DNA of 64,000 nucleotides from NCBI RefSeq assembly GCF_019857185.1, contig NZ_JAHWXP010000003.1:277501-341500 (forward strand). The letters are read 5' to 3'. The notes under the pieces were generated by a model, which saw only the letters and a program-made list of their open reading frames with translations, had not been told where the DNA came from and did not search any database. Of this stretch, positions 11,659 to 58,721 are shown piece by piece (position 1 is the stretch's first letter; each line of letters opens with the position of its first letter). The stretch comes from Alteriqipengyuania abyssalis. Lineage in GTDB: Bacteria > Pseudomonadota > Alphaproteobacteria > Sphingomonadales > Sphingomonadaceae. The position numbers and the translations under genes are program-made.

Positions 11659-11670
11659 TTTCTTCCTACT

Positions 11671-11757: not shown

Positions 11758-11759
11758 AG

Positions 11760-12317: not shown

Positions 12318-12325
12318 GGGGCGCG

Positions 12326-12353
12326 ATATGGGGCGCACCTGCACGCTATCAAG
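12326..12353 (-). promoter_or_regulatory. candidate sigma-32 (heat-shock) promoter of hslVU
   Basis: Read on the minus strand, CTTGATA (12353-12347) is followed by a 13-nt spacer and CCCCATAT (12333-12326). This is one mismatch from the enterobacterial heat-shock consensus CTTGAAA/CCCCATnT and also fits the alphaproteobacterial CTTG-N17-CYTATnT form closely. HslVU is a classical heat-shock operon. The -10 element ends only 8 nt before the hslV ATG, so the transcript would be almost leaderless. Confidence 0.65.
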
Positions 12354-12389
12354 CGGTGCAGGCGAACAATCGCGGCACCCGGTGGAGCG

Positions 12390-12869: not shown

Positions 12870-13053
12870 AGTACTCGCAATCCTCTTCGCAAATCTTGTG
12901 CGCCCTTCCTTGATCGGGCGCACGCGCTATATCGTGGCGCGAGCCTTACGGCCTCGCCCCACAACGTGCAATGGCAGCCGCACGGGCCTTTTGCACGAAC
13001 CTGATACCCCCTGCTGTGGCACCGGCGTTTGAATTGGTGCTGAATGAAGGAGC

Positions 13054-13590
13054 ATGATGTCTTTCCTGACCCGCCTTTTCGGTCGTGAGCCCGACCCGCG
13101 CGAAACATGGCACCCGCTATGGCACACGCTGGTCGGCACTGCGCGCGAAGAGCACTGGTATGCAACGCGCGGCGCGGCGGACACGCTGGATGGTCGTTTC
13201 GACATGATCTCGATGCTCACCGCGCTGTTCATGCTGCGACTGGAGAGCGAGCAAGATGCGGACGCGCACGGCGTGTCCGCCGCCGCGCGGCTGACCGAAC
13301 TGTTTGTGGAGGACATGGAAGGCCAGATGCGCGAGGCCGGCATCGGCGATCCCACCGTGGGCAAGATGATGGGCCGAATGATGGCCACGCTGGGCGGACG
13401 TGCGGGGGCGCTGCGCAACGCGCTGGCCCAAGAAGACGACGCGCCGCTGGCCGCGCTGGTGGCGCGCAATATGCACCTGTGGGACGAAGAGCATGGGCCG
13501 ACGCGCATGGCCGCAGGGCTGCGCGCACTGCACGCGCGCCTTGCACGCACGGAATTCGCCACGCTGCAACGCGGTGAGATCGCGGCATGA
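13054..13590 (+). CDS. ubiquinol-cytochrome c chaperone family protein
   Basis: A 178-residue soluble protein of the CBP3/ubiquinol-cytochrome c chaperone family, thought to help assemble the bc1 complex. The typical segments are present: WYATRGAADTLDGRFDMISMLTALFMLRLE in the first half and MEGQMREAGIGDPTVGKMMGRMM in the second. The stop overlaps the start of the DUF177 gene (ATGA), an arrangement conserved in sphingomonads. It is divergent from bamE with a 184-bp gap that probably holds both promoters. Confidence 0.88.
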   Translation: MMSFLTRLFGREPDPRETWHPLWHTLVGTAREEHWYATRGAADTLDGRFDMISMLTALFMLRLESEQDADAHGVSAAARLTELFVEDMEGQMREAGIGDPTVGKMMGRMMATLGGRAGALRNALAQEDDAPLAALVARNMHLWDEEHGPTRMAAGLRALHARLARTEFATLQRGEIAA

Positions 13591-14129
13591 CCGAGGTGAC
13601 GCCCCCTGAATTCTCCCGCCCGATCGCGCTGCGCCAGATCACCGGCCAGCCGCTGGTACTGGAGGCGACCGACGAGGAGCGAGCGGACCTCACTCGCCGT
13701 TTCGCGATCACCTCTGTCGACCGGCTGGTCGCACGGGTCGCGCTCGACCGACAGGGGGACCGGGTTGGCGTCACCGGCACGCTGGAGGCGGACATCGTCC
13801 AGCCCTGCGCGGTCTCGGGCGAGGATTTCCCGGTCGCGATCGTGGAAGACATCGCGCTGCGCTTCGTACCCGAAGGATCGATCCACCCTTCCTTGCAGGA
13901 AGACGAGGAAATCGAGATCGAGCTGGAGGCCGAAGATCTCGACGAAATCGAGTATGCTGGTGAAAAGTTCGATCTCGGCGAAGCCATCGCCCAGTCGCTG
14001 GCGTTGGCGATCGACCCTTATGCAGAAGGACCGAATGCCGAAGAGGCGCGCAAGAAGGCTGGGATCGAGCTGGACGATGCGCCGCGCGGGCCGCTGGCCG
14101 AAGCGCTTAAAGGGCTCGGTTCGAAGTAA
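13587..14129 (+). CDS. DUF177 (YceD-like) domain protein
   Basis: A 180-residue acidic protein of the DUF177/YceD family, linked in other bacteria and plants to 23S rRNA accumulation and usually encoded beside rpmF and plsX. The core contains VTGTLEADIVQPCAVSGEDFPV, in which the family Cys is kept, and a very acidic stretch around residues 107-130. Here neither rpmF nor plsX follows. The start overlaps the upstream chaperone stop by 4 nt, which suggests co-translation. Confidence 0.85.
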   Translation: MTEVTPPEFSRPIALRQITGQPLVLEATDEERADLTRRFAITSVDRLVARVALDRQGDRVGVTGTLEADIVQPCAVSGEDFPVAIVEDIALRFVPEGSIHPSLQEDEEIEIELEAEDLDEIEYAGEKFDLGEAIAQSLALAIDPYAEGPNAEEARKKAGIELDDAPRGPLAEALKGLGSK

Positions 14130-14478
14130 TCGCCACGGGGCTTGGTCCCATCTGTCACGAATGCCCCGCAAGCTCTAGATCGCGATCTCCAGGCCTCCAG
14201 AGCGCCTCGGATTGCCAACCAATCCCGCAGATCTTCCCTGATTTTTCTTCAAGAAGATCAGATACATCGCCCTGACCACTTCAAGTCCTCAAGAAATCTG
14301 CTAGCATCGTCGTGCAAAGGGGAAAGGCTTGCCGATCATGCCCATGTATCTCGCGGCGCGATGGACGCGCCCCGGGCGCGCAAACGGCTGACACGGACAC
14401 CTTCCTTCAAGCTGCGATCGGCTCCAGGCCGTCGGAACTAGTGGAGGTCGTATCACGGAGACTGACACCATATCGCCC
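14130..14478. other. 349-bp intergenic region before the PAS gene
   Basis: No convincing ORF. It contains a small inverted repeat (TTCTTCAAGAA) near 14246 and a strong GGAGG at 14443-14447. The GGAGG sits 7 nt upstream of an in-frame ACG (14455) and 4 nt upstream of an in-frame ATC (14452), but not at a usual distance from any ATG, GTG or TTG of the PAS gene. The promoter of that gene must lie here. Confidence 0.5.
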
Positions 14479-15015
14479 TTGCTCTGGTTCGCACTGGGGT
14501 TCGTTTTTTCGACGATCGTCTGCGTTATTTTCCTGCTGGTGGAGCGCAGCAGAATGCACGCCGCGCTGGCACAGGCCGAACGGGACCGCGCATGTCTGGC
14601 TCTGGCCGAAAACGTCGGTTCGGTCGCCACATGGATGGTCAACTTGCGGACCAGAGAGCTTTTCTGGTCAGACCGTGTTTTTGCAGTTCACGGCCGCGCC
14701 AAGGACGCCGGCCTCCCTCCACTGGAATCTACCATCGACTATTATCATCCCGAAGACCGGGAGCGGGCCAGAAAGACCTTCGCCAGCGCGGCCGTGACGG
14801 GCGGCCCATTTCATCTGGATGCGCGTATCATCGACGAGCAGGGAGTGGAAAAGCACATCATTTGCCGCGGCATCTGCAATCTCGGTCCTGACGGGAAACC
14901 GTTCGAGCTGTTTGGAGTCCTGTTCGAAGCCCCCGAAGCCCGCTCTTTCGCCACCTTCGGCAATGAAGACCTCAACACGCTCGCGCTCGAAGAAGATTAC
15001 CACGCCGACGCCTGA
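14479..15015 (+). CDS. membrane-anchored single-PAS-domain protein
   Basis: A 178-residue protein. An N-terminal membrane helix (LWFALGFVFSTIVCVIFLLV) is followed by a short linker and a PAS domain (about residues 40-155) with the PAS3-like pattern ELFWSDRVFAVHG, YYHPEDRERARKTF and a closing GVEKHIICRGICNLGPDGKPFELFGVLFE. No kinase, GGDEF or other output domain follows, so it may act as a sensory partner or be a remnant of a longer sensor. The start is uncertain: TTG at 14479 is the only usual codon, yet the good GGAGG lies upstream of ACG/ATC codons (14452-14457). Confidence 0.7.
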   Translation: MLWFALGFVFSTIVCVIFLLVERSRMHAALAQAERDRACLALAENVGSVATWMVNLRTRELFWSDRVFAVHGRAKDAGLPPLESTIDYYHPEDRERARKTFASAAVTGGPFHLDARIIDEQGVEKHIICRGICNLGPDGKPFELFGVLFEAPEARSFATFGNEDLNTLALEEDYHADA

Positions 15016-15029
15016 GCGAAAGCGCCGCC

Positions 15030-15689
15030 CTACATGGCGGAGAACGCTTCGAGATCGTGGATCCGGCCCGAGACGACCAGTTCGTCCCCCGGGAAGATGA
15101 GCGTGTCGGGCACCGCGTGGATGAAATCCTCCCCCTCACGCTTCACGCCCACCACCGTCACATCGTATTTCTTGCGGCACTGGCTGGTGACCAGCGGCAG
15201 GCCCAGCAGCGGCTCTGGCGCAACCAGCCGCGCGATCGCGAATTCGTCGCCGAAAGAGATGAAGTCCAGCAGCCGCTCGTTGATCAGGTGAGCGACGCGC
15301 TCACCCATCCGCTGTTCGGGGAAGACCACGTGCGTCGCCCCGGTCCGCTCGAGAATGCGGGCATGTTTCTCATTCGTCGCCTTGGCCCAGATATTGGTCA
15401 GGCCCAGATCCGCGAGCGCCAGCACGATCAGCACGCTGGCCTCGATATCGGTGCCGATGGCGACAACGGCGGCATCGAAATCCTTTGCGCCCAGCCGCTC
15501 CAGCGTGGGCGTCTCGGTTGCATCCGCCTCGACCACCTTGGTCAGGTCGCCGGCGAAATGCTGGACCAGCGCAGGGTCGGTGTCGACCGCCAGCACCTCG
15601 TGCCCCATCCGCTCCAGCGTGCGCGACACTGCGCCTCCGAAACGGCCGAGGCCGATGACCATGATGGGCTTGCGTGTGTTAGCCGACAA
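15030..15689 (-). CDS. KtrA/TrkA-type regulatory subunit of a potassium uptake system
   Basis: A 219-residue cytoplasmic protein with one RCK_N domain and one RCK_C domain. The dinucleotide-binding motif VIGLGRFG lies at the start of the first Rossmann fold, followed by acidic AVDTDP at the second strand. The C-terminal part ends with FPGDELVVSGR, typical of TrkA_C. It gates the membrane subunit encoded just upstream. The start is taken as TTG at 15689, which overlaps the upstream stop; an ATG at 15662 would cut into the first beta strand. Confidence 0.9.
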   Translation of the reverse strand: MSANTRKPIMVIGLGRFGGAVSRTLERMGHEVLAVDTDPALVQHFAGDLTKVVEADATETPTLERLGAKDFDAAVVAIGTDIEASVLIVLALADLGLTNIWAKATNEKHARILERTGATHVVFPEQRMGERVAHLINERLLDFISFGDEFAIARLVAPEPLLGLPLVTSQCRKKYDVTVVGVKREGEDFIHAVPDTLIFPGDELVVSGRIHDLEAFSAM

Positions 15690-17046
15690 TCGGGTTCTCC
15701 TGCGGATAGCGGAAAGGCAGTTCGCGCCCGCCCAGCGCAAGCGCGGTGGCCACGGTGATGGTTCCCACCCGGCCGACGAACATCAGCACGATCAGCGCCA
15801 GCAGGCCGCCCGGCGGCAGCGCAGCGGTGATCCCGGTCGACAGGCCGACGGTGGAGAAGGCGGAGATGCATTCGAACAGGATATCGTCCAGCGGCAGGCT
15901 GCTGATCGAGGCGATGTAGGTCGTCGCGACGAAGATCAGCGTTGCGGACAGCACCGTCACCGCCAGCGCCTGCCGCTCTATTTCGCGCCCGAAGCGGCGC
16001 TGGAACAGGCCCGCATCCTGCCGCCCGAGAATCTCCGACAGCACGATCGCGAACAGCACGAAGAAGGTCGTCACCTTGATCCCCCCGGCGGTGCCCGCGC
16101 TGCCGCCGCCGACGAACATCAGGAAGAAGTTGGTCATCAGCGTCTCGTCGTGGAAGGCGCCGACATTCAGGCTGTTGAACCCGGCGGTGCGCGGCATCAC
16201 CGAATGGAACGCGGCGTTGAGGATCTTCGCCCCCCACCCCATCGGCCCCAGCGTATCGGGATTGTCCCATTCCATCGCGAGGATCGCGAGGAAGCCCAGC
16301 ACGAGCAGCGCGGCAGTACCGCCGACGGTGATCTTGGTATGAAGCGACCAGCGCCGCCACACGATGCCATTGGTCCGCAGGTCCTGCATCACCGGGAAGC
16401 CCAGCGCGGTGATGATGATCGACACCATGATCGGCCCGAGGAACAGCGGATCGTTCTGGAAGCCCATCAGGCTGTCCGAATAGCTGGAAAAGCCCGCATT
16501 GTTGAACGCGCTGACCGAGTGGAACACACCGTGCCACAGCGCGAGGCCGGGCGCTTCGCCATAGCTGGCGATCAGGCGCACGGTCAGGATGAGCGCCACG
16601 ATCCCCTCCACCGCAATGGTGATGAAGAGGATCAGCCTGAGCGCGGTGAGCGCATCATGCGTCTCCAGCCGGCTGCGTTCCACCTGCGTTGCCATCCGGT
16701 CGCGCAGGCCAAAACCGCGCCCCGCCATCAGACCCAGCAGCGTGGCCGAGGTCATGATCCCGAACCCGCCGACCTGGAACAGCAGCAGGATCACCCCCTG
16801 CCCGAAGCCGGACCAGTAAGTCGGCGTATCGACCACGATCAGGCCGGTCACAGCGACGGCGGAGGTGGAGGTAAACAGCGCGGTCAGCAGCGGCGCGCGC
16901 ACCCCGTCCACGGTTGCGAAGGGCAAGCTGAGCAGCACGGTGCCGATCGCAATCGCCGCCAGAAACAGCACGGGAATCAAACGAATCGGGTCGCGCAGCG
17001 CTTTCACGCTGCGCCAATGCGCCCAAGCCGCGCCGGAATAAAGCAC
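15679..17046 (-). CDS. KtrB/TrkH family potassium transporter membrane subunit
   Basis: An inner-membrane K+ translocating subunit of about 455 residues, built of four M1-P-M2 repeats. Selectivity-filter-like segments are visible, for example TSTSAVAVTGLIVVDT, SVSAFNNAGFSS and SAFSTVGLSTG. The start is uncertain: GTG at 17046 or GTG at 17061 both fit, and an ATG at 17109 would overlap the neighbouring DMT gene. The stop overlaps the ktrA-like gene, so the two subunits are probably translated together. Confidence 0.9.
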   Translation of the reverse strand: MLYSGAAWAHWRSVKALRDPIRLIPVLFLAAIAIGTVLLSLPFATVDGVRAPLLTALFTSTSAVAVTGLIVVDTPTYWSGFGQGVILLLFQVGGFGIMTSATLLGLMAGRGFGLRDRMATQVERSRLETHDALTALRLILFITIAVEGIVALILTVRLIASYGEAPGLALWHGVFHSVSAFNNAGFSSYSDSLMGFQNDPLFLGPIMVSIIITALGFPVMQDLRTNGIVWRRWSLHTKITVGGTAALLVLGFLAILAMEWDNPDTLGPMGWGAKILNAAFHSVMPRTAGFNSLNVGAFHDETLMTNFFLMFVGGGSAGTAGGIKVTTFFVLFAIVLSEILGRQDAGLFQRRFGREIERQALAVTVLSATLIFVATTYIASISSLPLDDILFECISAFSTVGLSTGITAALPPGGLLALIVLMFVGRVGTITVATALALGGRELPFRYPQENPIVG

Positions 17047-17083
17047 CTTTACGAGCCCCACCCGACCGCACGGCGATCGCGGT

Positions 17084-18010
17084 TCAGCCCTGCTTTGCCC
17101 CGCGCACATTCTCCACGATCATCAGCACCAGCCCGGCGAAGACCAGGCCGAACCCGGCGAGGTGGATCCAGCGAAATGCCTCGCCCAGCAGCAGGTAGGA
17201 CAGCGCCAGCGCGCTCAGCGGCATGATCGCCATCGCGCCCGCGGTCAGCGCACCGGGTGCCTTGCGCACACCATTATACCAGATCACCGGGGCCAGCCCC
17301 CCGGTCGCCGCGCCCCAGAAGGCGAGCGCGCCGAGCCCGAACCCGGTCGCCTCGCTGAAATCGAACGGGCGGCTGTCGAACACCAGCGCCAGCACCACGA
17401 ACAGGATCGCCGCCATGATCGACGCGGCGAGCGTGGTTTCGAGCGAACTGATCCCGTCGGAAAGCTTGCGCGAGAGCAGCGTATAGGCCGCCTCCATGCA
17501 GATCGCCGCGCCGACTAGCGCCGCGCCCAGCAGCAGGGCATCGCCGCCCTGCCCGTCTCCGCTTCCGCGAAACAGGTTGATCACCGCGATACCGCCGACG
17601 CCCAGCGCCAGCGCGCCCGCCTTGCGCCAGTTCATCGCCGCGCCGAAGAACACCACCGCCCCGATCGCGGTCACTGCCGGCGTCGCGCTCATGATGGTCG
17701 ATCCGATCACCCCCGTGGTCAGTCGCATCCCGTAGAGCATGGTCGCGGTGAAGCCGACCATGCCGAAGGCGGAGATCGCCGCGATCACGCCCCAGTCCGA
17801 CCGCTGGACCTTCTCGAAACGATCGGTCGCAAACCACACGAACGGGGCGAGCACGATGCTGGCGATCGCCATCCTGAGGCACGAGGCGGTGAAGATCGAG
17901 AAATGCTCGCCAACGATCTTGCTCAGCGGGGTGGCCGTGCCGAACAGCGCCATGCCGCACAGCAGCTGGGCGATGGTCGTTGGCGAAGAGGATGTGTTTT
18001 GATTGGCCAT
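17084..18010 (-). CDS. DMT family transporter (EamA domain)
   Basis: About 308 residues with ten predicted helices arranged as two EamA repeats. The first begins AQLLCGMALFGTATPLSKIVG and the second ends with LSALALSYLLLGEAF, the canonical end of an EamA unit. Members export amino acids, nucleobases or other metabolites; the substrate is unknown. ATGs at 18031 and 18070 are in frame and could extend the N-terminus by 7 or 20 residues. The gene directly follows the ABC-F gene on the same strand. Confidence 0.85.
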   Translation of the reverse strand: MANQNTSSSPTTIAQLLCGMALFGTATPLSKIVGEHFSIFTASCLRMAIASIVLAPFVWFATDRFEKVQRSDWGVIAAISAFGMVGFTATMLYGMRLTTGVIGSTIMSATPAVTAIGAVVFFGAAMNWRKAGALALGVGGIAVINLFRGSGDGQGGDALLLGAALVGAAICMEAAYTLLSRKLSDGISSLETTLAASIMAAILFVVLALVFDSRPFDFSEATGFGLGALAFWGAATGGLAPVIWYNGVRKAPGALTAGAMAIMPLSALALSYLLLGEAFRWIHLAGFGLVFAGLVLMIVENVRGAKQG

Positions 18011-18081
18011 GGTCGATAGCGAATCGACCATCGAGGCGCGCCAGAGTTCCGGGCCGGTGGCAAGCGCCATGCCTTTGCGGC

Positions 18082-19653
18082 TCACACCGCAACCGATCTT
18101 TCGATTCCGATCCGCTCGAGCAAGGACGGATCGTGGCTGACCACCAGCAGCGCCCCGTCGAAGTGTCGCAGCGCGTCCTCCAGCACTTCGAGCGACTCGA
18201 TGTCGAGGTGATTGGTCGGCTCGTCGAGGATCAGCAGCCAGGGCGGGGTTTCTCCGGCGAGCGTCACCGCCAGCCCCGCACGCAGCCGCTCCCCACCCGA
18301 AAGCGTGCGCACGATGCGGTGCGCATCGCGATTGCGGAAGGCGAAGCGGGCGCATTGGGCATGGGCGCTCTCGACGTCGAGCTCGGGATGGCGGGCGCGC
18401 AGGTTTTCGAGAATGCTCGCCCGCGGGTCCAGCAGCGCGATATGCTGGTCGAGCATCGCGATCCGCCCATGCGCCCGATACACATCGCCCGCGACCGGAT
18501 CGAGCTGCCCCGCCGCAATCCGCAGCAGGGTCGTCTTGCCAGCCCCGTTGGCACCGCTCAGCGCGACCCGCTCCGGTCCGTCGATCCGCAGCGACCACGG
18601 CCCCAGCCGACGGTTGCCGAGCGCTACCTCCACCCGGTCCAGCGCGAGCACGCTTGCGCCTGACGGCATCCCACTTTCGGGCATTTCGATCCGCAGCGGG
18701 GTAACGACCTCCACTCTGGCGCGCGCTTCCTCGGTGCGCTTGGCGGCATCTGCGATCAGCCGGTCGCTGGTCGACTGTTCGCGTCCGCCGGTGTTCTCCG
18801 CCCGCTCGGCACGGGCACCCAGCAGGATCTTCGGTTGCGATCCGCTTGCGGCCACGGCCCGCCCTGCCTTGTCGCGGCGCGCCTTGGCTTCGCGCCGTTC
18901 CTGCGCAGACCGCCGCGCCGATCGCAGCGCCGCTTCGGCGCGCGCGCTTTCCTGGGCAATTCGCTCGCGCTCCGCATCGCGTGCGGCAACGAACGCGGAC
19001 CATCCGCCGCCGAAGCTGGTCACGCCGAAAGGTGTCAGCTCCACCATCCGGTCCATGTGTTCGAGCAGCTGGCGATCATGGCTGGCGACCAGCATGCCGC
19101 CGCGCCAGTCCTCCACCAGCGCCGCAATTGCCGCGCGTCCGGCGGCATCGAGATTGTTGGTCGGCTCGTCCAGTAGCAGAAGGTCCGACGCCTCCAGCCG
19201 CAGGCGGGCGATCCCGATCCGGGTCCGTTCCCCGCCGGAGAGTGTGGCTATTTTCCGGTCGAGCGGGATTTCGGGCAGGCCGACAGCTGACAGAGCGGCA
19301 GCGATCCGTTCTTCCAGCGACCAGTCGGCCTGCGCGAAATCATCTTCCGTCCCCTCTCCCGCCAGCACGCGGGTAACCGTGACCAGCCGATTGTCCACGC
19401 CGAGCGCGCGCGCAATCGTGTCTCCGGGCGGTAGATCCTGATGCAGCACGCCGAGCGTGCCGGACATGGTTATAGTGCCCGCTGCGGGCGTCGCCGCCCC
19501 GGCGATCATCGCGAGCAGGGTCGATTTGCCCGAACCGTTGCGACCGACCAGACCGACACGCTCCGCGCCGATCGACAGGGTCAGGTCATGGAAAAGCGGG
19601 CGGCCGTCAGGCGTGCGTGCGGAGAGGGAATCGAGCGTGATGAAGGAAGACAT
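18082..19653 (-). CDS. ABC-F family ATPase
   Basis: A 523-residue soluble protein with two ABC ATPase domains and no membrane segment. The first Walker A is GRNGSGKST with signature LSGGERTR, and the second Walker A is GANGAGKTT with LSGGERLR. An Arg/Ala-rich charged linker joins them. ABC-F proteins act on the ribosome in translational control or antibiotic protection; the subgroup cannot be set from sequence alone. The start at 19653 (MSSFITLDSLS) fits the family; nine further codons are open upstream. A 290-bp non-coding gap lies upstream. Confidence 0.9.
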   Translation of the reverse strand: MSSFITLDSLSARTPDGRPLFHDLTLSIGAERVGLVGRNGSGKSTLLAMIAGAATPAAGTITMSGTLGVLHQDLPPGDTIARALGVDNRLVTVTRVLAGEGTEDDFAQADWSLEERIAAALSAVGLPEIPLDRKIATLSGGERTRIGIARLRLEASDLLLLDEPTNNLDAAGRAAIAALVEDWRGGMLVASHDRQLLEHMDRMVELTPFGVTSFGGGWSAFVAARDAERERIAQESARAEAALRSARRSAQERREAKARRDKAGRAVAASGSQPKILLGARAERAENTGGREQSTSDRLIADAAKRTEEARARVEVVTPLRIEMPESGMPSGASVLALDRVEVALGNRRLGPWSLRIDGPERVALSGANGAGKTTLLRIAAGQLDPVAGDVYRAHGRIAMLDQHIALLDPRASILENLRARHPELDVESAHAQCARFAFRNRDAHRIVRTLSGGERLRAGLAVTLAGETPPWLLILDEPTNHLDIESLEVLEDALRHFDGALLVVSHDPSLLERIGIERSVAV

Positions 19654-19880
19654 AGGGCACCGTGGCAAGGGTCGAGACAAGGCGGGTCGCGTTGTTCGTC
19701 CTGATGTTCACGATGGAGTTCCTTCTTTAGTTCGACCTCGAATGTATGCGCGGGGCGAAGCTGACGCAACCGGACAGCGCGCGTCCGTGGCCTGATTGCG
19801 CTGTCCTACACGGCCTGCGCACGGCATGATCGGTGCGTTCTTTGAGATCGTCGATTGCCTGCAGGAGGCGCCCTTTGGGA

Positions 19881-19925
19881 AGGGAGAGTTTTTGCTCCCC
19901 TGGACAGCGTGTCAGGTGTGTCAGG
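19881..19925 (+). repeat. dispersed 45-bp element, copy 1
   Basis: A short GGGAG...CTCCC stem is followed by TGGACAGC and a tandem GTGTCAGGT-GTGTCAGG. A closely similar sequence occurs in opposite orientation at 29528-29570, also between genes. The two copies agree at nearly every position across the last 31 bases. Its position upstream of the ABC-F gene and downstream of the exported hypothetical protein excludes a coding explanation. Confidence 0.75.
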
Positions 19926-19944
19926 AACCCAACAGAAACCGCGA

Positions 19945-20415
19945 TCAGAACGGAGCCGGCGGGCCGTAGAACATGTCGACCTCGATGATGCGGACCACGT
20001 CCCTGGGCCAGGTCATTGTGACGTCGAGCGTCCAGATCGGCGCGTTGTGGCCGTCTGGGATGAGGGTGAGTTGGTAGGTCGGAAACACCGCGCCCTCGCG
20101 CGATGTGCGCTCGATCTGCCAGACATGATCGAGGTCCAGCGCTACGAAGGCGTCGCGCGGTCCGATGCGGTTCTGGTCGTAGGATGCAGGCGCGCCGCTG
20201 GAGAGGTGGAAATAGGTCTTCTCGCCGTCTCTCAGCTTCGCCTGCTCGGCGCGCAGGGCATCGAGCATACGGCTCGCCTCCGCCGCGTCGAGAGAGCGCA
20301 GGTGCTGTGCGGGCGACTCAGCCTGTGGCTGCGACTGCGCGCACAGCATGCCGGGCACACACAGCGCGCCGGCGAGCGCTGCGATGGTTGCAAAGCGACG
20401 GGGGCGAACGGGCAT
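19945..20415 (-). CDS. exported hypothetical protein
   Basis: A 156-residue protein with a typical signal peptide (start MPVRPRRFATIAALAG, cleavage near LCAQS). The mature part has an Ala/Glu-rich helical segment followed by beta-rich sequence with VWQIERTSREGAVFPTYQLT and a C-terminal WPRDVVRIIEVDMFYGPP. I do not recognise the family. It lies 66 bp downstream of ssb on the same strand. The open frame extends to 20481, but the ATG at 20415 gives the proper signal peptide. Confidence 0.65.
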   Translation of the reverse strand: MPVRPRRFATIAALAGALCVPGMLCAQSQPQAESPAQHLRSLDAAEASRMLDALRAEQAKLRDGEKTYFHLSSGAPASYDQNRIGPRDAFVALDLDHVWQIERTSREGAVFPTYQLTLIPDGHNAPIWTLDVTMTWPRDVVRIIEVDMFYGPPAPF

Positions 20416-20481
20416 CTTGCCGCATTGCCCCCTCGCCACTTTCTGCAAAGTGAACCCGGCCCCTACGGCCTGGAACGCCAC

Positions 20482-21021
20482 CTAGAACGGAATGTCGTCT
20501 TCCAGATCGTCGTAATTGGCACCCCCGCCCGAGCCACCGCCCGAACCACCGCCGCCCTGGTTCCAGCCGCCACCCTGATCGCCGCCGCCCGAGCCACCGC
20601 CGTAGCCGCCACCCGAGCCGCCGCCACGCTGGCCGCCGCCGTAGCCGCCGCCACCGCCACTGCCACCCTGGGGGCCGTCGAGCATGGTCAGCGTGCCGTC
20701 GAAGCCGCGCAGCACGACTTCGGTGCTATAGCGGTCCTGCCCGTTCTGGTCCTGCCACTTGCGGGTCTGCAGCTTGCCCTCGATGTAGACCTTGCTGCCC
20801 TTCTTGAGGAACCGCTCGACCACGTTGACGAGGCCTTCGGAGAAGATCGCGACGGTGTGCCACTCGGTCCGCTCCTGCCGTTCGCCGGTGTTGCGGTCCT
20901 TCCACTGCTCGCTGGTCGCGATGCGCAGATTGGCGACCTTGCCGCCGTTCTGGAAGCTGCGGATTTCGGGGTCCGCGCCCAGATTGCCGATCAGCATGAC
21001 CTTGTTGAGGCTGCCCGCCAT
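20482..21021 (-). CDS. ssb: single-stranded DNA-binding protein
   Basis: A 179-residue SSB. The OB-fold is at residues 1-110 ([19 protein letters not shown], later TEWHTVAIF and [24 protein letters not shown]). A long Gly/Ser-rich disordered linker follows, and the acidic tail DDLEDDIPF recruits replication and repair partners. The Gly-rich codons create a repetitive GCC/CCG-type DNA stretch around 20510-20670 that is coding, not an independent repeat. Confidence 0.97.
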
Positions 21022-21121
21022 GATTCGTATCCCTTCGTGTCTGTTGGGATGGGCCTAACTGACGGTGCGAGTCGCATCCAGAGCCGCTTGCGACTTTCCA
21101 CCGGAGCGGACGCGGTTGGCG

Positions 21122-22966
21122 CTACAACCCCAGCGTCACCGCACTCCAGTAGGTGATGCCCGCGAAGATATAGGCCAGCGCGAACAGGTAGCCGACCATG
21201 AAGGCAGGCCATTTCCACCCGTTGGTCTCGCGCCGGGCGACCGCGATGGTCGAAAGGCACTGCGGTGCGAACACGAACCACGCGAGGAAGGCGAGCGCGG
21301 TCGGCAGGCTCCAGCGGGTGGAGAGCGTGCTGGCGAGGCCTTCGGCCTCGGCCTCCTCGTCGCTCGCATCAATCGCGTAGGTCGTTGCGAGGGCGGACAC
21401 GGCAACCTCGCGCGCGGCCATCGCGGGGACCAGCGCCAGGCTGATCTCCCGGTTGAAGCCGATCGGTTCGAGCACGACGTTGAGCCCGTCCGCGATCTGC
21501 CCTGCGATCGAGACGTCGACCTGACTCTCGCCCGGCTCGGCCTGCGGGAAGCTGAGCAGGACCCACAGGATCACCGTGGCGGAGAAGATGATGGTACCCG
21601 CACGGCGCAGGAAGACCCATGCACGCTGCCACAGACCGATCGCGATGTCTGCGATGCTGGGCAACTGGTAGCGCGGCAGTTCCATGATGAAACCGGTCGC
21701 CTCACCCCTGGTCAGCGTACCGCGCAGCACCAGCGCGACGACCAGCGCCGCGACAATCCCTGCGAGATAGAGGCAGAACATCACCAGCCCCTGCAAGCCG
21801 ATGCCCATCCCGACATCGCGCGCCGGAATGAAGGCGGCGATCAGCACGCCATAGACCGGCAGGCGCGCCGAACAGGTCATCAGGGGGGCGATCAGGATGG
21901 TGGTCAGCCGGTCCTTCGGATCGGCGATCGATCGCGTCGCCATGATCCCGGGAATGGCGCAGGCGAAGCTGGAGAGCAGCGGGATGAAGCTGCGGCCCGA
22001 CAGGCCCACGCCAGCCATCAGGCGGTCCATAAGGAAGGCGGCGCGGGCCATGTAGCCGGTCGCCTCCATGATCAGGATGAACAGGAACAGGATGATGATC
22101 TGGGGCAGGAACACGACCACCGAGCCAACGCCCGCAATTACCCCCTCGGTCAGGAAATCGCGCAGGATGCTCTCCGGCATCTCGGCCTTGACCCACGCGC
22201 CCAGCGCACCGGCCCCCGCATCGAGCGCGTCGGACAGCGGCGCGGCCCAGGCAAACACCGCCTGGAAGATGACGAACAGCAGCACCAGCAGGATCAGCGG
22301 ACCGATCCACGGGTTGAGGAGCACATTGTCGAGCCGGTCGCCGATCCGGCGCGCCCTGGAGGTCTGGAACACCGTCGCCTTGGCGATTGTGCGCGCCTCC
22401 AGCCGGCGCTCGGTCGCGTCCATCTTCGGACGATCGGCGAGCGTGCCGACCTGTCCGCGCGCTTCGGCGATCGCGGCCTTCAGCTGGTCGATCCCGCGGC
22501 GCCGCACCGCGACCGTTTCGACAACCGGCACGCCCAGCGCCTGCGACAGTACGGTGGCATCGAGCTTGAGCCCGTCGCGCTCCGCCATGTCGACCATGTT
22601 GAGCGCCACAATCGTGGGCTTGCCCAGCGCCAGCACTTCCTGCGCGAACACGAGGTGCTGTTCCAGATTGCCCGCGTCGAGCACCAGAACCAGAATGTCG
22701 GGCTCCGCCTCGCCGGGAAACTCGCCCTGCGCCACCTTGCGCGTCACGTCTTCGTCGGGGCTGGAGGCGTCGAAGGCATAGGCCCCGGGAAGGTCGATCG
22801 CTTCCATCTGGGTGCCGTCGGGCAGCGTCAGTATCCCCGCGACGCGTTCCACGGTCACGCCGGGGTAGTTGGCGATCTTCTGCCGCGCACCGGTCAGCTT
22901 GTTGAACAGCGCGCTCTTGCCGGCATTGGGGTTGCCGAGCAGCGCGACCCGGATCGTATCGCTCAT
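21122..22966 (-). CDS. feoB: ferrous iron transporter FeoB
   Basis: A 614-residue inner-membrane Fe(II) transporter. The N-terminal G-protein domain has G1 GNPNAGKS (residues 11-18), G3 DLPG in the AIDLPGAYAFD segment and G4 NMVD. About eight to ten helices follow, with gate motifs such as PLMTCSARLPVYGVL in the first Gate region. The length is short for the family (commonly 700 or more), mainly because of a compact C-terminus. It is transcribed after feoA (9 bp gap); no feoC is present. Confidence 0.95.
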   Translation of the reverse strand: MSDTIRVALLGNPNAGKSALFNKLTGARQKIANYPGVTVERVAGILTLPDGTQMEAIDLPGAYAFDASSPDEDVTRKVAQGEFPGEAEPDILVLVLDAGNLEQHLVFAQEVLALGKPTIVALNMVDMAERDGLKLDATVLSQALGVPVVETVAVRRRGIDQLKAAIAEARGQVGTLADRPKMDATERRLEARTIAKATVFQTSRARRIGDRLDNVLLNPWIGPLILLVLLFVIFQAVFAWAAPLSDALDAGAGALGAWVKAEMPESILRDFLTEGVIAGVGSVVVFLPQIIILFLFILIMEATGYMARAAFLMDRLMAGVGLSGRSFIPLLSSFACAIPGIMATRSIADPKDRLTTILIAPLMTCSARLPVYGVLIAAFIPARDVGMGIGLQGLVMFCLYLAGIVAALVVALVLRGTLTRGEATGFIMELPRYQLPSIADIAIGLWQRAWVFLRRAGTIIFSATVILWVLLSFPQAEPGESQVDVSIAGQIADGLNVVLEPIGFNREISLALVPAMAAREVAVSALATTYAIDASDEEAEAEGLASTLSTRWSLPTALAFLAWFVFAPQCLSTIAVARRETNGWKWPAFMVGYLFALAYIFAGITYWSAVTLGL

Positions 22967-33826: not shown

Positions 33827-33918
33827 GGAGACGTGGGTGAGTGGCTGAAACCAGCTCCCTGCTAAGGAGCCATACCTCTATCGGGGTATCGAGGGTTCGA
33901 ATCCCTCCGTCTCCGCCA
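33827..33918 (+). tRNA. tRNA-Ser (anticodon GCU)
   Basis: A 92-nt class II tRNA including an encoded CCA. The acceptor stem GGAGACG (33827-33833) pairs with CGTCTCC (33908-33914). The anticodon loop CTGCTAA carries GCT at 33861-33863, giving serine. A long variable arm and the T-loop GGTTCGAATCC are present. Its 3' 22 nt are repeated with two mismatches at 35821-35842, the mark of a phage or island attachment site. Confidence 0.97.
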
Positions 33919-33920
33919 TT
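33899..33920. repeat. attachment-site-like repeat, left copy (inside tRNA-Ser)
   Basis: The 3' end of tRNA-Ser plus TT. The last 16 bases, CTCCGTCTCCGCCATT, are identical to 35827-35842, and 20 of 22 bases match overall. Tyrosine-recombinase elements commonly integrate at tRNA 3' ends and leave such direct repeats. No integrase gene survives in between. Confidence 0.75.
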
Positions 33921-34671
33921 CTTTCGATCTCGCGGCAATTCGCTTCGCTCAGGCCTCCGATGGGGAGGCCTGACGGTCGGTCGCGCAGTCGCGCTCCTGC
34001 CGGAGAGTTCGAGCTTCGTCTCGTACCCTCCGCCATTTCGTCTTCATATCGCGAAGCCGCGCCCGCTCAATCGATCGCTGCCCCCCCATTTTTCCAGCTT
34101 GCGGTAGACGGTCGAGGGGCCGACATCGAGCGTCTTCGCCGCCTTCCATGGCATTTCCAAACTTTAGACCTTCGGGATCGGTACAGGAGGCTGGTTCCGA
34201 ACGATTAAGCGAGGCCCGCGTAAATCCATAATGCTACGGTCTACGAATGCACGTAGAACCTCCTGTTTCAGCATCCACTCCACGCCGGCCTTCCCCGGCA
34301 GTGGTGAGCAAGAAATCGCTCGGTTACGGACGCGTAAGAGCCTCAGGCAGCACAGTAATAGCGCCTCATTTCGCAAGTCAGCAGACATCCGCGCTCGCTT
34401 GAAAAGACCCGCTTCGCAGAACTCCCGTCACCGAGAAAGGACGGCAAACCATCCCCTGAAAACAATCAATTGCAAGCTCCAAAGGCACGAACCGCCTCCA
34501 GATTTAAGCCCAAGCCCGCATCGCGCTCGCAATCGACATATCGGACCGTGACGGTCGAGAAGGATGAGAATGGTTGAAACAAACCGACCGCGATAAATTA
34601 ACGGATCTGCATAGGTGTTGTGAATAGAGGCTTGGCTTGATCAGATCCCAAGTGGACGTAATTGAGAACCC
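33921..34671. other. non-coding, AT-richer DNA of the putative remnant island
   Basis: About 750 bp between tRNA-Ser and galE with no convincing gene. The base composition is visibly less GC-rich than the flanks, especially from about 34,200 to 34,670. The only recognisable coding trace is a helix-turn-helix fragment on the minus strand (34044-34154), preceded in the same frame by a stop and about 70 open codons of unknown nature (34164-34388). Confidence 0.6.
34044..34154 (-). pseudogene. helix-turn-helix remnant (Fis- or resolvase-type C-terminus)
   Basis: A 36-codon fragment whose translation, MPWKAAKTLDVGPSTVYRKL then EKWGG, fits the DNA-recognition helix-turn-helix at the C-terminus of Fis/NtrC-type regulators or of resolvases and transposases. 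An in-frame stop lies 10 nt upstream and the rest of the protein is missing, so it is a decayed piece. It lies between the two tRNA-derived repeats. Confidence 0.45.
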
Positions 34672-35694
34672 ATGCAGAGAATGGATAAAAGCCCCACCCT
34701 CGTAACCGGCGGTGCAGGCTATATCGGTAGCCACGCGGTTCACGCGCTGCGCGACGCCGGCCGCCCGGTGGTGGTGATCGACAATCTTTCAACCGGCTTC
34801 CGCTTCGCGGTACCGGAGGACGTCCCTTTCTACGAAGGCGATATCGCCGACCGCGATCTGCTTGCACGTGTCTTCGCCGAACAGGGCATGGGCGATGGCA
34901 AAGGGGCAGTGATGCACTTTGCAGGCTCGATCATTGTGCCTGAATCGATCGCCAAGCCATTGTGGTATTACGAAAACAATACGGTGAAGAGCCGTGGCCT
35001 CATCGAGGCGGCGGTGGCGGCTGGCGTGCCCCATTTCCTGTTCAGCTCGACCGCGGCGACCTACGGCGTGCCCCATGTCTCGCCGGTGACAGAGCAGACG
35101 CCGACCGTGCCGATCAACCCCTATGGCTGGTCCAAGCTGATGACCGAGCAGATGCTGGCGGATACCGCCCATGCGCATCCGATCAACTTCTGCGCCCTGC
35201 GTTACTTCAACGTCGCCGGGGCCGATCCGCAAGCGCGCACAGGGCAGTCGACCGCGGGAGCGACACACCTGATCAAGGTCGCGGTCGAGGCCGCGCTGGG
35301 CAAGCGCGAATGCGTCAGCGTGTTCGGGACCGATTACGACACGCCCGACGGCACCGGCGTGCGGGACTATATCCATGTCAGCGATCTGGCAGCGGCGCAT
35401 GTGCTGGCGCTCGATGCGCTGATCGCCGAGCCGGAGCGGTCGATGACGATGAATTGCGGCTACGGGCGCGGGTTCTCCGTGCTCGAAGTGCTCGACGCGG
35501 TGGACCGGGTGACGGGCGGCCAGATCGAACGCGTCTTTGGCGAGCGCCGCGCGGGCGACCCGGCGATGCTCGTCGCCGACAGTTCGCTGCTGCGCGCGAC
35601 CGTTCCGTGGACGCCGCGCCACGACAATCTCGACAAGATCATCGAACATGCGCTGATGTGGGAAAAGAAACTCACCGAATTGCGCACCTCCTAG
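34672..35694 (+). CDS. galE: UDP-glucose 4-epimerase
   Basis: A 340-residue extended short-chain dehydrogenase. The NAD motif GGAGYIG is at residues 13-19; the catalytic SST (125-127) and YGWSK (Tyr151, Lys155) are present. The downstream RYFNVAGAD and TPDGTGVRDYIHVSDLA segments are characteristic of GalE. It interconverts UDP-glucose and UDP-galactose for surface polysaccharide. No sugar-operon neighbours: it lies alone inside the 1.9-kb interval bounded by tRNA-Ser repeats, so it may be cargo of an integrated element. Start ATG 34672 or 34681. Confidence 0.93.
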   Translation: MQRMDKSPTLVTGGAGYIGSHAVHALRDAGRPVVVIDNLSTGFRFAVPEDVPFYEGDIADRDLLARVFAEQGMGDGKGAVMHFAGSIIVPESIAKPLWYYENNTVKSRGLIEAAVAAGVPHFLFSSTAATYGVPHVSPVTEQTPTVPINPYGWSKLMTEQMLADTAHAHPINFCALRYFNVAGADPQARTGQSTAGATHLIKVAVEAALGKRECVSVFGTDYDTPDGTGVRDYIHVSDLAAAHVLALDALIAEPERSMTMNCGYGRGFSVLEVLDAVDRVTGGQIERVFGERRAGDPAMLVADSSLLRATVPWTPRHDNLDKIIEHALMWEKKLTELRTS

Positions 35695-35820
35695 CGGCTT
35701 CAAGACCTGACACCGCGCAACACGTCGACCCGCAGTGCCGTCGACCGAAGCGACCAAAATGAAATATCGAGCGCATCGGCTTGAGTGACCCTGCCTAGAA
35801 AATACTTGGACGAGAAGGCA

Positions 35821-35842
35821 GAACCGCTCCGTCTCCGCCATT
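35821..35842. repeat. attachment-site-like repeat, right copy
   Basis: Repeats the last 22 nt of the tRNA-Ser region (20 of 22 identical; 16 bp CTCCGTCTCCGCCATT exact). No acceptor 5' half, D-arm or anticodon arm precedes it, so it is not a second tRNA gene. It marks the probable right boundary of an element that carried galE. Confidence 0.75.
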
Positions 35843-35922
35843 TTCCGACTCCGATGCCCGCTGGTTATACAACACGGCCTGTGAGGTAGCCCCTCCCCGG
35901 CCGGAAATACGTCATTGGCGAC

Positions 35923-36426
35923 TCATGCTTTCAGAGATAGCGGCAGCCCCGCCGCCACCAGCACAACTTCGTCCACGACGCCGGCAATCCGCTGGTTGAG
36001 CCTCCCCGCTTCGTCCCGGAAGCGGCGCGCGAGGGCATTGTCCGGCACGATGCCGAAGCCGACCTCGTTCGCGACCAGCGCGATCGGATGTCGGCATTCG
36101 CCGATCGCACGCTCGATCGCGTCGACCGGCACCGGCCGATCGGCGAGGATGAGGTTGGACAGCCACAGCGTCAGGCAATCGACGAGGATCGCATCGGCCT
36201 TTGCATCCGCCTCGGCGATCGCCGCCGGCAGGTCGAGCGGAGCTTCGATGGTGAACCATCGCTCGCCGCGATCTGCGCGGTGACGGTCGATCCGCTGGTG
36301 CATCTCGTCATCGCGCGCTTCCGCCGTCGCGATATAGGCAAGCCGTCCGTCGATCGCTTCGCTGCGTTGCTGCGCGTAGCGGCTCTTGCCAGAGCGCGCG
36401 CCTCCCAGGACCAGCAGGCTCGTCAT
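35923..36426 (-). CDS. cobU: adenosylcobinamide kinase / adenosylcobinamide-phosphate guanylyltransferase
   Basis: A 167-residue bifunctional enzyme (CobU/CobP) that phosphorylates adenosylcobinamide and then activates it with GMP during nucleotide-loop assembly. The P-loop GGARSGKS is at residues 8-15. The second conserved block is DCLTLWLSNLI, followed by VANEVGFGIVPDNALARRFRDEAGRLNQ. It is the last gene of the leftward cobalamin arm; its ATG overlaps the cobQ stop by 4 nt. Confidence 0.95.
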   Translation of the reverse strand: MTSLLVLGGARSGKSRYAQQRSEAIDGRLAYIATAEARDDEMHQRIDRHRADRGERWFTIEAPLDLPAAIAEADAKADAILVDCLTLWLSNLILADRPVPVDAIERAIGECRHPIALVANEVGFGIVPDNALARRFRDEAGRLNQRIAGVVDEVVLVAAGLPLSLKA

Positions 36427-51963: not shown

Positions 51964-52004
51964 GAAAAAGAAGAACCCGGGCGTCCGGTGAGACGCCCGG
52001 GTTC
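51964..52004 (-). terminator. rho-independent terminator of the autotransporter gene
   Basis: A 13-bp perfect stem: GAACCCGGGCGTC (51973-51985) pairs with GACGCCCGGGTTC (51992-52004) around a 6-nt loop. On the minus strand it is followed at once by TTCTTTTTC. It lies about 78 bp past the autotransporter stop, the right place and orientation. Confidence 0.85.
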
Positions 52005-52081
52005 AGGGTTCGATCGGTCCATCAGGGGACTTTCGGTTTTAGACCGGTTGCCGAACCCATCCCAGACACCTTGGGGCCCGG

Positions 52082-55000
52082 CTACATTGCGAAGCTGACC
52101 GATGCTCGCAGCGCATAGCCGATCTGGTCGTTGTGCTCCTCCGCGGAAAGTTCGCCCGAAATGGTGTAGAAGGCATCGCCTCCCACACCGCGCAGCCGCG
52201 CGAACCAGCCGCTGGTTCGCTCCTCGGGCGTCAGAGTAAAGCTGTCGCCGTCGCCGAACCGGGCGGTTGTCGCGCCAAGTTCACCGGAGAGGATCTCACG
52301 CCATCCTCCTTCCGCCTCGATCCGCAGCCAGTTCTTGTCGCGCCTGCGCATGCCGAGCAGATCGACGCCGACGGCACTGCCGACATTGATCGCGAGTTCA
52401 TCGCTGGTCCGATCTTCGACCGTGAGATTCAGTGCCTCGCCGCCGGTCTCGACATAGCCGTCCTCGCTCAGCCGGATATAGTCGAGCGTTACGGACGGCC
52501 GGAAGAAGACAAACTGCGATCCGGCTTCGAGCGAGACACCCGCGATGAAGCTGGTGGCGTTGCCGGACCACTCGCCGTCCATCGTCCGAGTGATGGTCTG
52601 ATCGCCGTCCTTGCCGTTGAAATAGCGGGCCCCATCGAAGTTCGCGAAACTGTAGGAACCTCGGGCGAAGCCGGACAGCGCGCCCCATTTTCCGCGCCAG
52701 TACAGCGCGCCTTCGTAGGTGTTGGAGATGAGGCTGTTGTCGGCCAGCGTATCGTGCCGGTTCCACAGCCAGGTGGCCGTGGCACCGACGGTGCCGAGCC
52801 CTGTCTGCAATTCGGCACCGCCCGAGAAACCCAAACCGTCGAGGTCGTATTGCGCGGTGTCTCCTTCATCCTTTGACGAATCCCACCCCGCCGCATCGAA
52901 CACGATGCTCAGCTTCTCCTTGCGTTCGAACGGACCCTGCGGCTCCGCGAGCCTGCGCGCGAAGGTCCGGATGCCGAGGCTGAGGCCGTCGAACGCGCCG
53001 CCCGCGTGATCGGGCAGGGTCTGCGCGACGGCGGCGCGAAACGGGTCTTTCTCGGTGATGTCAAGGAAGACGCCCGCAACGTCGTCATCCTCGGCGAGAG
53101 CGGCGTAAAGTGCATCATAGGCGGTCGTCTGCGCGCGGTTGAGGCCGAGTTCGTCGGTCGCCTTGCGGTCGATATCCACCTTCACGAGTCCCGCCGCCTG
53201 ATCCACGGCCAGCTGCGCCTTGTACATGAAGGGGACCAGCGCGACGTCCGGCTTCAGGGTTGCTGCACCCGTGAGCGTGCCCGCGTCGATGACGGTGTAG
53301 ATCCCTTCCGCCTCTGCGATATCGGTCAGCCGCAGCTTGAGCTTTGCGCCGTCCGCGAAACTGGCATTGCCGGTGACGGTGATCCCGCTTCCCGCAGCGG
53401 GGTCCTTGCTGAGCGTGGTGACGACCACGCCGTTCGCGCCGACCGCAAGTGTCGAAAGAGTGGTGGGCCCAGTCAGATCGAGCGCGCCGCCGTTGACCAT
53501 GACCGACAGGTTTTCGCTGCCGACCAGACGCCCCTTGAAGAGGGCCTTGTCGGCCAGCGTGAGCTTGCCTGCCCCACCCGCGAAATCCGCCGTGCCCGCG
53601 AAGCCAGCAGTGCCAGACAGCGCCAGTTCGTCGGTCTGACCACCGAAGCTTGCCTTGCCGGAAAAGCTCGCATCACCCGACAGCACGAACCGATCTAGCC
53701 CTGCGCCGAACGACACATCGCCCGCGACCGTTCCGTCGAGCAGTTCGAGCCTGTCTTCCCCGCTGCCGAACAGGATGTCGCCCTTGATACCGGGCGCGTT
53801 TACGCCAGAGCCGACCACCGTCTGGCGCACGGTCGCACCGGCGGCGACGCTGGTCAGATCGATCGCGATATTGCGGCCCGTATCGGCCTTCGCGCCGCTG
53901 GCAATAATCTGGCCGCTGTTCTCGACCAGACGCAGCGTGCCGCTGCGATCGACGATTGCGATTGCCGTACTCGTATCCTTGAGAGCGATCGCCTTGATCG
54001 TCCCGCTGTTGCGAACATAGGGCAAGTTCGCCCCGACATCGATCGAAACTGCGGTCGCGCGCGTCGCATCTCTGCCTCCGCCCGAGGCGGAGATGGTGCC
54101 AGCGTTGCGCAATTCGGCCGTCGAAGCTCCCGCGCCCAGACGCAGTGCGGTGGCGTTGCTGTCTATCGAGCTCGCGGCGATCGAACCATTAACGGCAATC
54201 CCGCCGGCAATCGTGACGTCGCCGCCGCGCCCGCCAATGACCATCCCGTTGCCGTCGATTCCGCTATACACCCCCTGACCCGCGATCGATCCGTCGACAA
54301 TGATCCCGAACCCGGTCCCGGTCGCAGGCAGGGCACCGATCGCGATGTCCCTGTCGGTGGCGCCGATCACCACTGCCGGCGCGGCACCATAGGAGACGAC
54401 CTTGGCGCTCCCTTCCTTCGCGTCCTCGATCCCGTCCTTGTCCTCGTCCGGGTCGTCCTTGTCGGTATCGGCAGGCGGGACTGCGAAGCGGATGCCCTTG
54501 GCCACGTCGCCTTCGATAACGATCGCGCTGCCTCCCTGGAGGACGTCGTCATCGTCGAGCTTGCTCAGATCGGCGGGCGCGGTCACCGCGCGGTAGCCGG
54601 TCGACACGATCGTGCCCTGAACCACCAGGGTGCCATCCAGATCGCCGGCGAAGCGCGCCGCGATCGCATCCTCGCCCTTTGCCGACACCGTTCCGGCTAG
54701 CCGCACGTCGCCGGTTACGTCCTGCACGTCGATACCCACGCTGCGATCGCCGAGAACCACAGTCTCGCCATCGTGGACCAGCTTGCCGTCCACCACACCG
54801 GCGACCCAGATGCCGGCAGAATCATTGCCTTCGACGGTGATCTTGCCCGAGTTGACGATGTTACCGGTCAGATTGCCGCGGATACGGATGCCCACCCGGT
54901 CGGTGCCGACCGCGAAGGGGCCATCGAGATCCTTGTCGTTGTCGATATCGGTCGGCTCGTAGGTTTCATCGACCGTGATCGTCCCGGTGTTGACGATGTC

Positions 55001-55282
55001 GGACTGCCGGTCGCCGGTGGTCTCGATCCCGCTCCCGCCATCGACATTCGTGATGACAATCTTGCCTTCATTGGTCGCATCGTGATCGCTGTCGACGACG
55101 ATCCCCGAGCCGCTGGTCAGCTCGATCGAACCGTTCTTGGTCACCTTTACATCGTCGCCAGCCCCATCCTTGAGCTGCGACGTGCGAACCGGCTGCGTCC
55201 GCTTCGCGTCGACCGTGGTCTGCGCCGCCGCGGGCGCGGCCAGCGCTGCAAGTGCGGTTCCGGCCAGAAGATAACGATACAT
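52082..55282 (-). CDS. autotransporter (type Va secretion) with beta-helical passenger
   Basis: A 1066-residue surface protein. Signal peptide residues 1-20 (ALAALAAPAAAQ). The passenger, about 21-770, consists of short repeated units with NxGxI-type turns (NTGTITVD, NSGKITVEG, NAGTISASG), fitting a right-handed beta-helix. An acidic DxDxD-like insertion at residues 272-289 may bind calcium. The C-terminal barrel domain, about 790-1066, starts after PDHAGGAFDGLSLGIRTFARRL and ends in an aromatic-type strand (ASVSFAM). The role, adhesion or biofilm, is inferred only. Confidence 0.88.
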   Translation of the reverse strand: MYRYLLAGTALAALAAPAAAQTTVDAKRTQPVRTSQLKDGAGDDVKVTKNGSIELTSGSGIVVDSDHDATNEGKIVITNVDGGSGIETTGDRQSDIVNTGTITVDETYEPTDIDNDKDLDGPFAVGTDRVGIRIRGNLTGNIVNSGKITVEGNDSAGIWVAGVVDGKLVHDGETVVLGDRSVGIDVQDVTGDVRLAGTVSAKGEDAIAARFAGDLDGTLVVQGTIVSTGYRAVTAPADLSKLDDDDVLQGGSAIVIEGDVAKGIRFAVPPADTDKDDPDEDKDGIEDAKEGSAKVVSYGAAPAVVIGATDRDIAIGALPATGTGFGIIVDGSIAGQGVYSGIDGNGMVIGGRGGDVTIAGGIAVNGSIAASSIDSNATALRLGAGASTAELRNAGTISASGGGRDATRATAVSIDVGANLPYVRNSGTIKAIALKDTSTAIAIVDRSGTLRLVENSGQIIASGAKADTGRNIAIDLTSVAAGATVRQTVVGSGVNAPGIKGDILFGSGEDRLELLDGTVAGDVSFGAGLDRFVLSGDASFSGKASFGGQTDELALSGTAGFAGTADFAGGAGKLTLADKALFKGRLVGSENLSVMVNGGALDLTGPTTLSTLAVGANGVVVTTLSKDPAAGSGITVTGNASFADGAKLKLRLTDIAEAEGIYTVIDAGTLTGAATLKPDVALVPFMYKAQLAVDQAAGLVKVDIDRKATDELGLNRAQTTAYDALYAALAEDDDVAGVFLDITEKDPFRAAVAQTLPDHAGGAFDGLSLGIRTFARRLAEPQGPFERKEKLSIVFDAAGWDSSKDEGDTAQYDLDGLGFSGGAELQTGLGTVGATATWLWNRHDTLADNSLISNTYEGALYWRGKWGALSGFARGSYSFANFDGARYFNGKDGDQTITRTMDGEWSGNATSFIAGVSLEAGSQFVFFRPSVTLDYIRLSEDGYVETGGEALNLTVEDRTSDELAINVGSAVGVDLLGMRRRDKNWLRIEAEGGWREILSGELGATTARFGDGDSFTLTPEERTSGWFARLRGVGGDAFYTISGELSAEEHNDQIGYALRASVSFAM

Positions 55283-55375
55283 GCATTCCTCCGTCTTGAG
55301 TCAGACGGGAGGACGGAGCCGACGGGAACTTGCCTTGGTCCTGTCGATAAAAATCTCGCGCGCCCGGCCCAGCCG

Positions 55376-57748: not shown

Positions 57749-57750
57749 CG

Positions 57751-58683: not shown

Positions 58684-58721
58684 TCACGAATGCTCCTGGC
58701 CACATGACGGAGTCGTCGCGC

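Follow-up and report, generated by a model that had tools for sequence, protein, structure and literature searches.

We propose that positions 33919-35842 of the window, by which we mean the whole 64,000-nucleotide stretch of DNA analysed here, are probably the rest of an acquired block of ~21 kb, made up of an exopolysaccharide (EPS) cluster and galE, which was later reduced by deletions and whose galE took the place of the native copy. The host is a marine, Citromicrobium-like bacterium. Islands at tRNA genes, their decay and the displacement of native genes by imports are all known kinds of event, and the value of this locus is that it holds an unusually complete record of them. No account of the locus was found in the literature covered, which consisted mostly of titles and the opening lines of abstracts. 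The comparison rests on a genus sample of 10 genomes, in which G000 is the window genome and G003, G009 and G005 are its nearest relatives, with flanks 92-96% identical in DNA. Sister loci were compared in oriented, stitched coordinates; in tblastx synteny GC-rich noise was dominant, and these matches were excluded from counts. The features of the locus are these:

33827-33918, plus strand: intact tRNA-Ser(GCU) (ARAGORN, Rfam RF00005), its 3' end marked as an integration hot spot by comparison with relatives
33899-33920, plus strand: left repeat, attL-like, with a 14-nt core at 33905-33918 (motif counts and the repeat in relatives)
33919-34036, plus strand: trailer repeat of 118 bp, present also behind other tRNA-Ser genes (CGA, UGA) of G001 and G007
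34046-34145, minus strand: 3'-end remnant of a sigma-54 response regulator gene, the left edge of the EPS cluster (96% identity to G003, 97% to G009)
34143-34145, no strand: deletion junction, CTT being common to both edges (alignment to G003)
34143-34529, minus strand: first codons of a GAF-domain gene and the region upstream of it, the right edge of the deleted cluster (common to G002, as far as 34529, G003 and G009)
34672-35694, plus strand: galE (UDP-glucose 4-epimerase), apparently imported and the only galE of the genome (profile match, tree and genome search)
35821-35842, plus strand: right repeat, attR-like, with its 14-nt core at 35827-35840 (motif counts and the repeat in relatives)
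35923-36426, minus strand: cobU, the first cobalamin-cluster gene outside the right repeat (Pfam CobU)

The final 20 nt of tRNA-Ser(GCU) plus TT (33899-33920) recur 1.9 kb downstream at 35821-35842, where 20 of 22 positions match and the last 16 bases (35827-35842) form an identical run. A preliminary description of this DNA had recorded the repeat in the same terms (two mismatches, 16 identical bases), and both shuffling and genome counts agree with it. Could such a repeat arise by chance in GC-rich intergenic DNA? The 14-nt core, CTCCGTCTCCGCCA, does occur with one mismatch at four further sites in the genome, a number not above the reversed-pattern control and hence a background frequency. 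However, the 22-mer at up to three mismatches has two sites in the window and not one of 100 shuffles contained two matches (shuffle mean 0.00). The exact core is present exactly twice in the 3.1-Mb genome, so that the concern that the match might be common elsewhere fell away; naive expectation for an exact copy is 0.09 genome-wide and 3e-5 for a single strand over 2 kb. Moreover, the repeat is kept in G003 and G009. Chance is therefore an extremely improbable explanation, and the repetition of the tRNA end is supported as non-random.

The DNA that directly follows the tRNA gene has a character of its own. The 118-bp trailer is 88% identical to a stretch after tRNA-Ser(CGA) in G001 and is found also behind tRNA-Ser(UGA) in G001 and G007; it comprises a terminal hairpin-like string and CTCCGCCATT, has a fold z-score of -1.97 and matches no Rfam family above its cut-off. 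CTCCGCCATT, at 34029-34038, is a shorter string that resembles the tRNA end and was absent from the preliminary description. The tRNA flank of the window, ATTCTTTCG, is of the type seen in G001 and G008, whereas that of G003 and G009 reads ATTTTGGC. Because the two flanks differ, one simple insertion at the tRNA end cannot account for both.

The same site in the congeneric genomes presents a series of different states. In G003 the tRNA is followed by ~230 bp, a complete EPS/H-NOX cluster, galE, the right repeat (19/22 overall, 13/14 in the core) and cobU, and no integrase was found between tRNA and repeat. In G009 a 47.3-kb element follows the tRNA; its tyrosine integrase adjoins the tRNA, and its far end carries a 22/22 repeat. 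Beyond it come the end of the EPS regulator, galE, the right repeat (20/22) and cobU. In G005 the tRNA is followed by a 7.65-kb element carrying an integrase, Toprim and AAA proteins; next are a 14/14 core, a patatin-like gene and then cobU, and the galE of this genome lies at another place. G004 displays two tandem units bounded by three 14/14 cores, then ~3 kb, the EPS cluster and galE, with no core copy behind galE within 19 kb. The remaining five (G001, G002, G006, G007 and G008) have one core copy in stretches of ~11-27 kb and are without this cobU junction; a second copy was not found in G007 as far as the contig end. A tyrosine integrase lies within 10 kb 3' of tRNA-Ser(GCU) in four of the 10 genomes (G004, G005, G007 and G009). 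The integrases of G009 and G007 fall under the Pfam cut-off for the catalytic domain and over it for Arm-DNA-bind_3 and Phage_int_M. The core that bounds the window interval also bounds integrase-bearing elements in G009 (22/22), G005 and G004 (14/14 in both), and together these comparisons between genomes establish the 3' end of tRNA-Ser(GCU) as an integration hot spot. The content of the locus varies, and galE is not an invariant resident of this place in all relatives. The predicted tRNA-cobU junction with a single att copy did not materialize: an empty site, in which the tRNA is joined to the cobU flank with one core, has no exact junction in the 10 genomes, and the closest genome without the block, G005, has its own 7.65-kb element and the patatin gene between tRNA and cobU.

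Some of these neighbours merit a description in their own right. The 47-kb element of G009 contains matches to DrmA (1.6e-211) and DrmB (2.4e-80), a cytosine methyltransferase and a Vsr-like nuclease; it appears to be a defence island, DISARM-like in gene content. The small elements at tRNA-Ser(GCU) in G005 (7.7 kb) and G004 (8.8 kb) have integrases that are 89% identical, along with Toprim and AAA proteins, and seem to be satellite-like elements common to the two species. The orthologous cob cluster of G008 is placed ~270 bp behind tRNA-Met(CAT) (5125-5201 of the G008 locus), not behind tRNA-Ser, and no repeat of the tRNA-Met end was found behind it within 18 kb; judged by gene order, the cob cluster has moved within the genus. 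A patatin-like gene also occurs in the window at 60372-61607, and its G005 homologue (84%), the gene between the tRNA element and cobU, has the opposite orientation. The window block 51968-59400 directly follows tRNA-Ser(GCU) in G002 and is found at other places in G007 and G008.

What has been lost from the window can be read from G003. The cluster of that genome encodes a sigma-54 response regulator, an H-NOX (HNOB) protein, a Wza-like export protein, a 473-aa chain-length-like protein, a ligase-like protein, glycosyltransferases, a flippase, a WecG/sugar-transferase fusion, two histidine kinases and a GAF protein (the names of the 441-aa ligase-like protein and of one glycosyltransferase are putative, given by us from the sequence). 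Both of its edges persist in the window. The remnant at 34046-34145 corresponds to the stop codon of the regulator gene and roughly the 25 codons before it, with a 1-nt indel; the regulator is NtrC-type with a Fis-type HTH, and HTH_8 is present in the intact protein. From 34143 the window aligns with G003 again, at G003 position 22,507, which lies six bases beyond the start codon of the GAF gene; the junction consists of 45 regulator-like nt, three common nt and then the GAF start. Absent from the window are 19.4 kb, G003 positions 3,110 to 22,509. The alignment indicates that the window lost its EPS cluster in one 19.4-kb deletion between edges with 3 bp in common. Relative to G003 the EPS cluster of G009 displays a gap of 15,864 bp, and this 15.9-kb loss is, by the same alignments, independent of the window's deletion.

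These edges give a different identity to two features already noted at the locus. Since they are continuous with the ends of the G003 cluster, the helix-turn-helix fragment, which does exist on the minus strand at 34046-34145, is the Fis-type HTH at the C-terminus of the sigma-54 response regulator, at an edge of the EPS cluster. An origin of this HTH as a piece of an integrase, excisionase or resolvase was ruled out, as it aligns to the regulator end. The AT-richer DNA is likewise real, 34143-34671 having a GC content of 53% against 66% for the window, but by its alignment it is the start of the GAF gene with its upstream region and not the remains of an integrase or excisionase. The preliminary description had viewed the interval as an integrated element with galE as cargo that had lost its integrase only. 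The direct repeat, the tRNA target and the galE inside are in keeping with that view; the missing DNA, however, is a 19.4-kb EPS cluster with both edges readable, and the HTH belongs to its regulator, so we consider it very unlikely, and in its narrow form it is refuted by G003. There is no integrase gene in 33919-35842, and as the undeleted interval of G003 is also without one between tRNA and repeat, loss of an integrase cannot be demonstrated. The footprint of integration at a tRNA retains the non-random repeat, the hot spot and the common core in its favour, but the part that went missing was mainly not an integrase.

The galE of the interval is intact: it encodes 340 aa and scores 397.5 bits against the NCBIfam galE equivalog TIGR01179, whose cut-off is 262.3, and its own upstream DNA has stayed with it over ~500 bp. 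That it is the sole galE of the genome and replaces a native copy had been missed. At the native locus a ~6-kb upstream block is followed by galE in five of the 10 congeners (G001, G002, G005, G006 and G007). In G000, G003 and G009 this block leads directly into a galE stub of the final 45-52 codons, and the junction is identical in all three. The stub of G000 is the weak second galE match of the genome, at C4:1583-1717; it is 60% identical to the window GalE over 45 aa, and its flanks are 90-91% identical to G005. A second functional galE in the window genome is ruled out, the match on C4 being this stub, and a search for a second full copy in G000, G003 and G009 found none. The galE of G008 lies away from the 6-kb block; G004 contains parts of the block only, and its sole close galE adjoins the EPS cluster.

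The window GalE is 97% identical to those of G003 and G009, 93% to that of G004 and 82% to that of G005, whereas EipA, encoded beside the tRNA, is 92% identical in G005 and 62% in G004. In the GalE tree (24 rows, G015 having been dropped because its alignment was too short) the window, G003, G009 and G004 form one clade (100/98), while G005 branches outermost among the congeners. In tree tests, for which all groups were chosen after the first tree was known, a constraint uniting the window, G003 and G009 with G005 was rejected for GalE (p-AU 0.018), and one uniting the three with G004 was rejected for EipA (p-AU 0.0013); holding the nine non-G004 congeners together for GalE gave a marginal result (p-AU 0.049). 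Because it groups with the distant G004 and not with the sister G005, the window galE can be taken as an import; the discordant tree, the sole copy and the stub are themselves shown by these comparisons. Might the native galE have simply relocated to the tRNA site within the lineage, without import? One galE lost, one gained and the lack of another complete galE in G000, G003 and G009 would fit, but the stub at the native locus is that of a different galE and the window galE groups with G004, which makes relocation scarcely credible. An imported galE is the reading that we retain. With the native gene deleted to a stub, the island copy would have taken over, and the import, with its intact reading frame, may now act in the role of the lost native copy. 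Two marks of xenologous gene displacement are present, namely conflict between the gene tree and its neighbour and decay of the native copy.

Across the family, the EPS cluster turned up in 26 of the 298 genomes. It is the counterpart of Sphingomonadales EPS clusters (Wza, Wzz, Wzx, WecG and Bac_transf in Pfam names) that is missing from the window, and it is recognisable in nine genomes of other genera at 25-95% protein identity, its type being assigned by the comparison made here. Wzz, the 473-aa chain-length-like protein that has no Pfam match, was found in three of the 10 congeners (G002, G003 and G004) and is absent from G000 and G009. Unlike those nine clusters, the ones in G003 and G004 have galE at their right edge, as do the remains in G000 and G009; the cluster is also without an adjacent galE in G002, where it lies on the tRNA-Val side. 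A role for galE as a general member of the cluster was ruled out by its absence within 32-36 kb in the nine other-genus genomes, these being the nine of 24 in which it was searched for over the whole cluster. In the G003 group its regulator end is no more than 500 bp away from the 3' end of a tRNA (tRNA-Ser GCU), and so it is in G002 (tRNA-Val CAC) and, outside the genus, in G159 (tRNA-Ser UGA) and G209 (tRNA-Met CAT). This corresponds to two of three lineages of the genus and two of the 23 other-genus genomes checked (of 24, the fragmented G114 being left out), the other 21 having no tRNA there. Roughly 0.1 such loci would be expected by chance among 26, given the general density of tRNA genes. 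A distal repeat of the neighbouring tRNA end was not found around the cluster in G002, G159 or G209, and that the EPS cluster itself travels between tRNA genes is a lead, not a result.

How would the block have reached the window site? In our model, the common ancestor of G000, G003 and G009 acquired a block of ~21 kb, comprising an H-NOX/NtrC-regulated EPS cluster and galE, at the 3' end of its tRNA-Ser(GCU) gene, presumably by tyrosine-integrase recombination at the tRNA core, and the integrase would have been lost later. Arrival in this manner has against it that the G003 block is without an integrase, that the G003 core carries a mismatch and that in G004 galE is not followed by a right repeat within 19 kb. 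The window's right repeat could also stem from another element: it may be the attR of an older, unrelated one, and the EPS-galE DNA, having entered by homologous recombination or another route, may merely lie inside the interval. This account is possible, if somewhat doubtful. Elements do accumulate at tRNA-Ser(GCU), two tandem ones precede the EPS-galE DNA in G004, no right repeat follows it in that genome, and the block itself contains no integrase. In addition, the flank to the right of the window repeat (35841-35865) is similar to a sequence within the left end of the G007 element (alignment score 36, against at most 24 in shuffles) and is perhaps a trace of another element. On the other side, G003 has nothing except the EPS cluster and galE between tRNA and repeat, and the repeat is retained in all three species that have the block or its remains.

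On the model of a block acquired as a unit, the import would have come first and rendered the native galE dispensable. The native gene, at its other locus, would then have been lost by one deletion of ~1.05 kb that left the short 3' stub. Subsequently, in the window lineage, the 19.4-kb deletion would have taken the EPS cluster and spared galE with its upstream region, and a separate deletion of 15.9 kb would have cut the cluster in G009. In both cases galE may have been kept because it was the sole remaining copy.

Genomic islands associated with tRNA genes and P4-type tyrosine integrases are a known class, and the locus shares with them the tRNA 3'-end target, the direct repeat of the tRNA end, variable cargo and, in G004, tandem accretion; integrases with Arm-DNA-bind and Phage_int_M domains stand at tRNA-Ser(GCU) in G005, G007 and G009. 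It differs in that neither the window remnant nor its intact G003 counterpart has an integrase in the interval from the tRNA to the repeat. Xenologous gene displacement is likewise an established concept, and as expected from it the imported homologue is the only copy left and the native gene is a stub at another locus; what departs from it is that the donor block was here almost wholly deleted afterwards, with galE alone left at the tRNA. Citromicrobium prophages, for which the portion of the report considered here names tRNA-Phe, tRNA-Gln and tRNA-Val as integration targets (PMC12486242), resemble the locus in genus and in tRNA-targeted integration, but tRNA-Ser(GCU) is not among the targets named in that portion.

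What does such a history imply for the fate of islands? Once an island copy stands in for a housekeeping gene, clean excision would come at a cost, and the island could then be taken apart only by deletions within it that leave this gene untouched. We tentatively suggest that displacement might act in this way as a ratchet that fixes islands: galE would be captive, only internal deletions would be possible, and the window and G009 would be two independent outcomes, a view that we hold as worth pursuing and not as the probable one. The record spans import, loss of the native gene with a stub left behind and dismantling of the island, and it does so in three close species with outgroups in older states. 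It makes testable the question of whether replacement of a core gene holds a foreign remnant in place. Islands are usually judged by their cargo, and the locus carries a warning for annotation: a core metabolic gene that adjoins a tRNA may be all that survives of an island.
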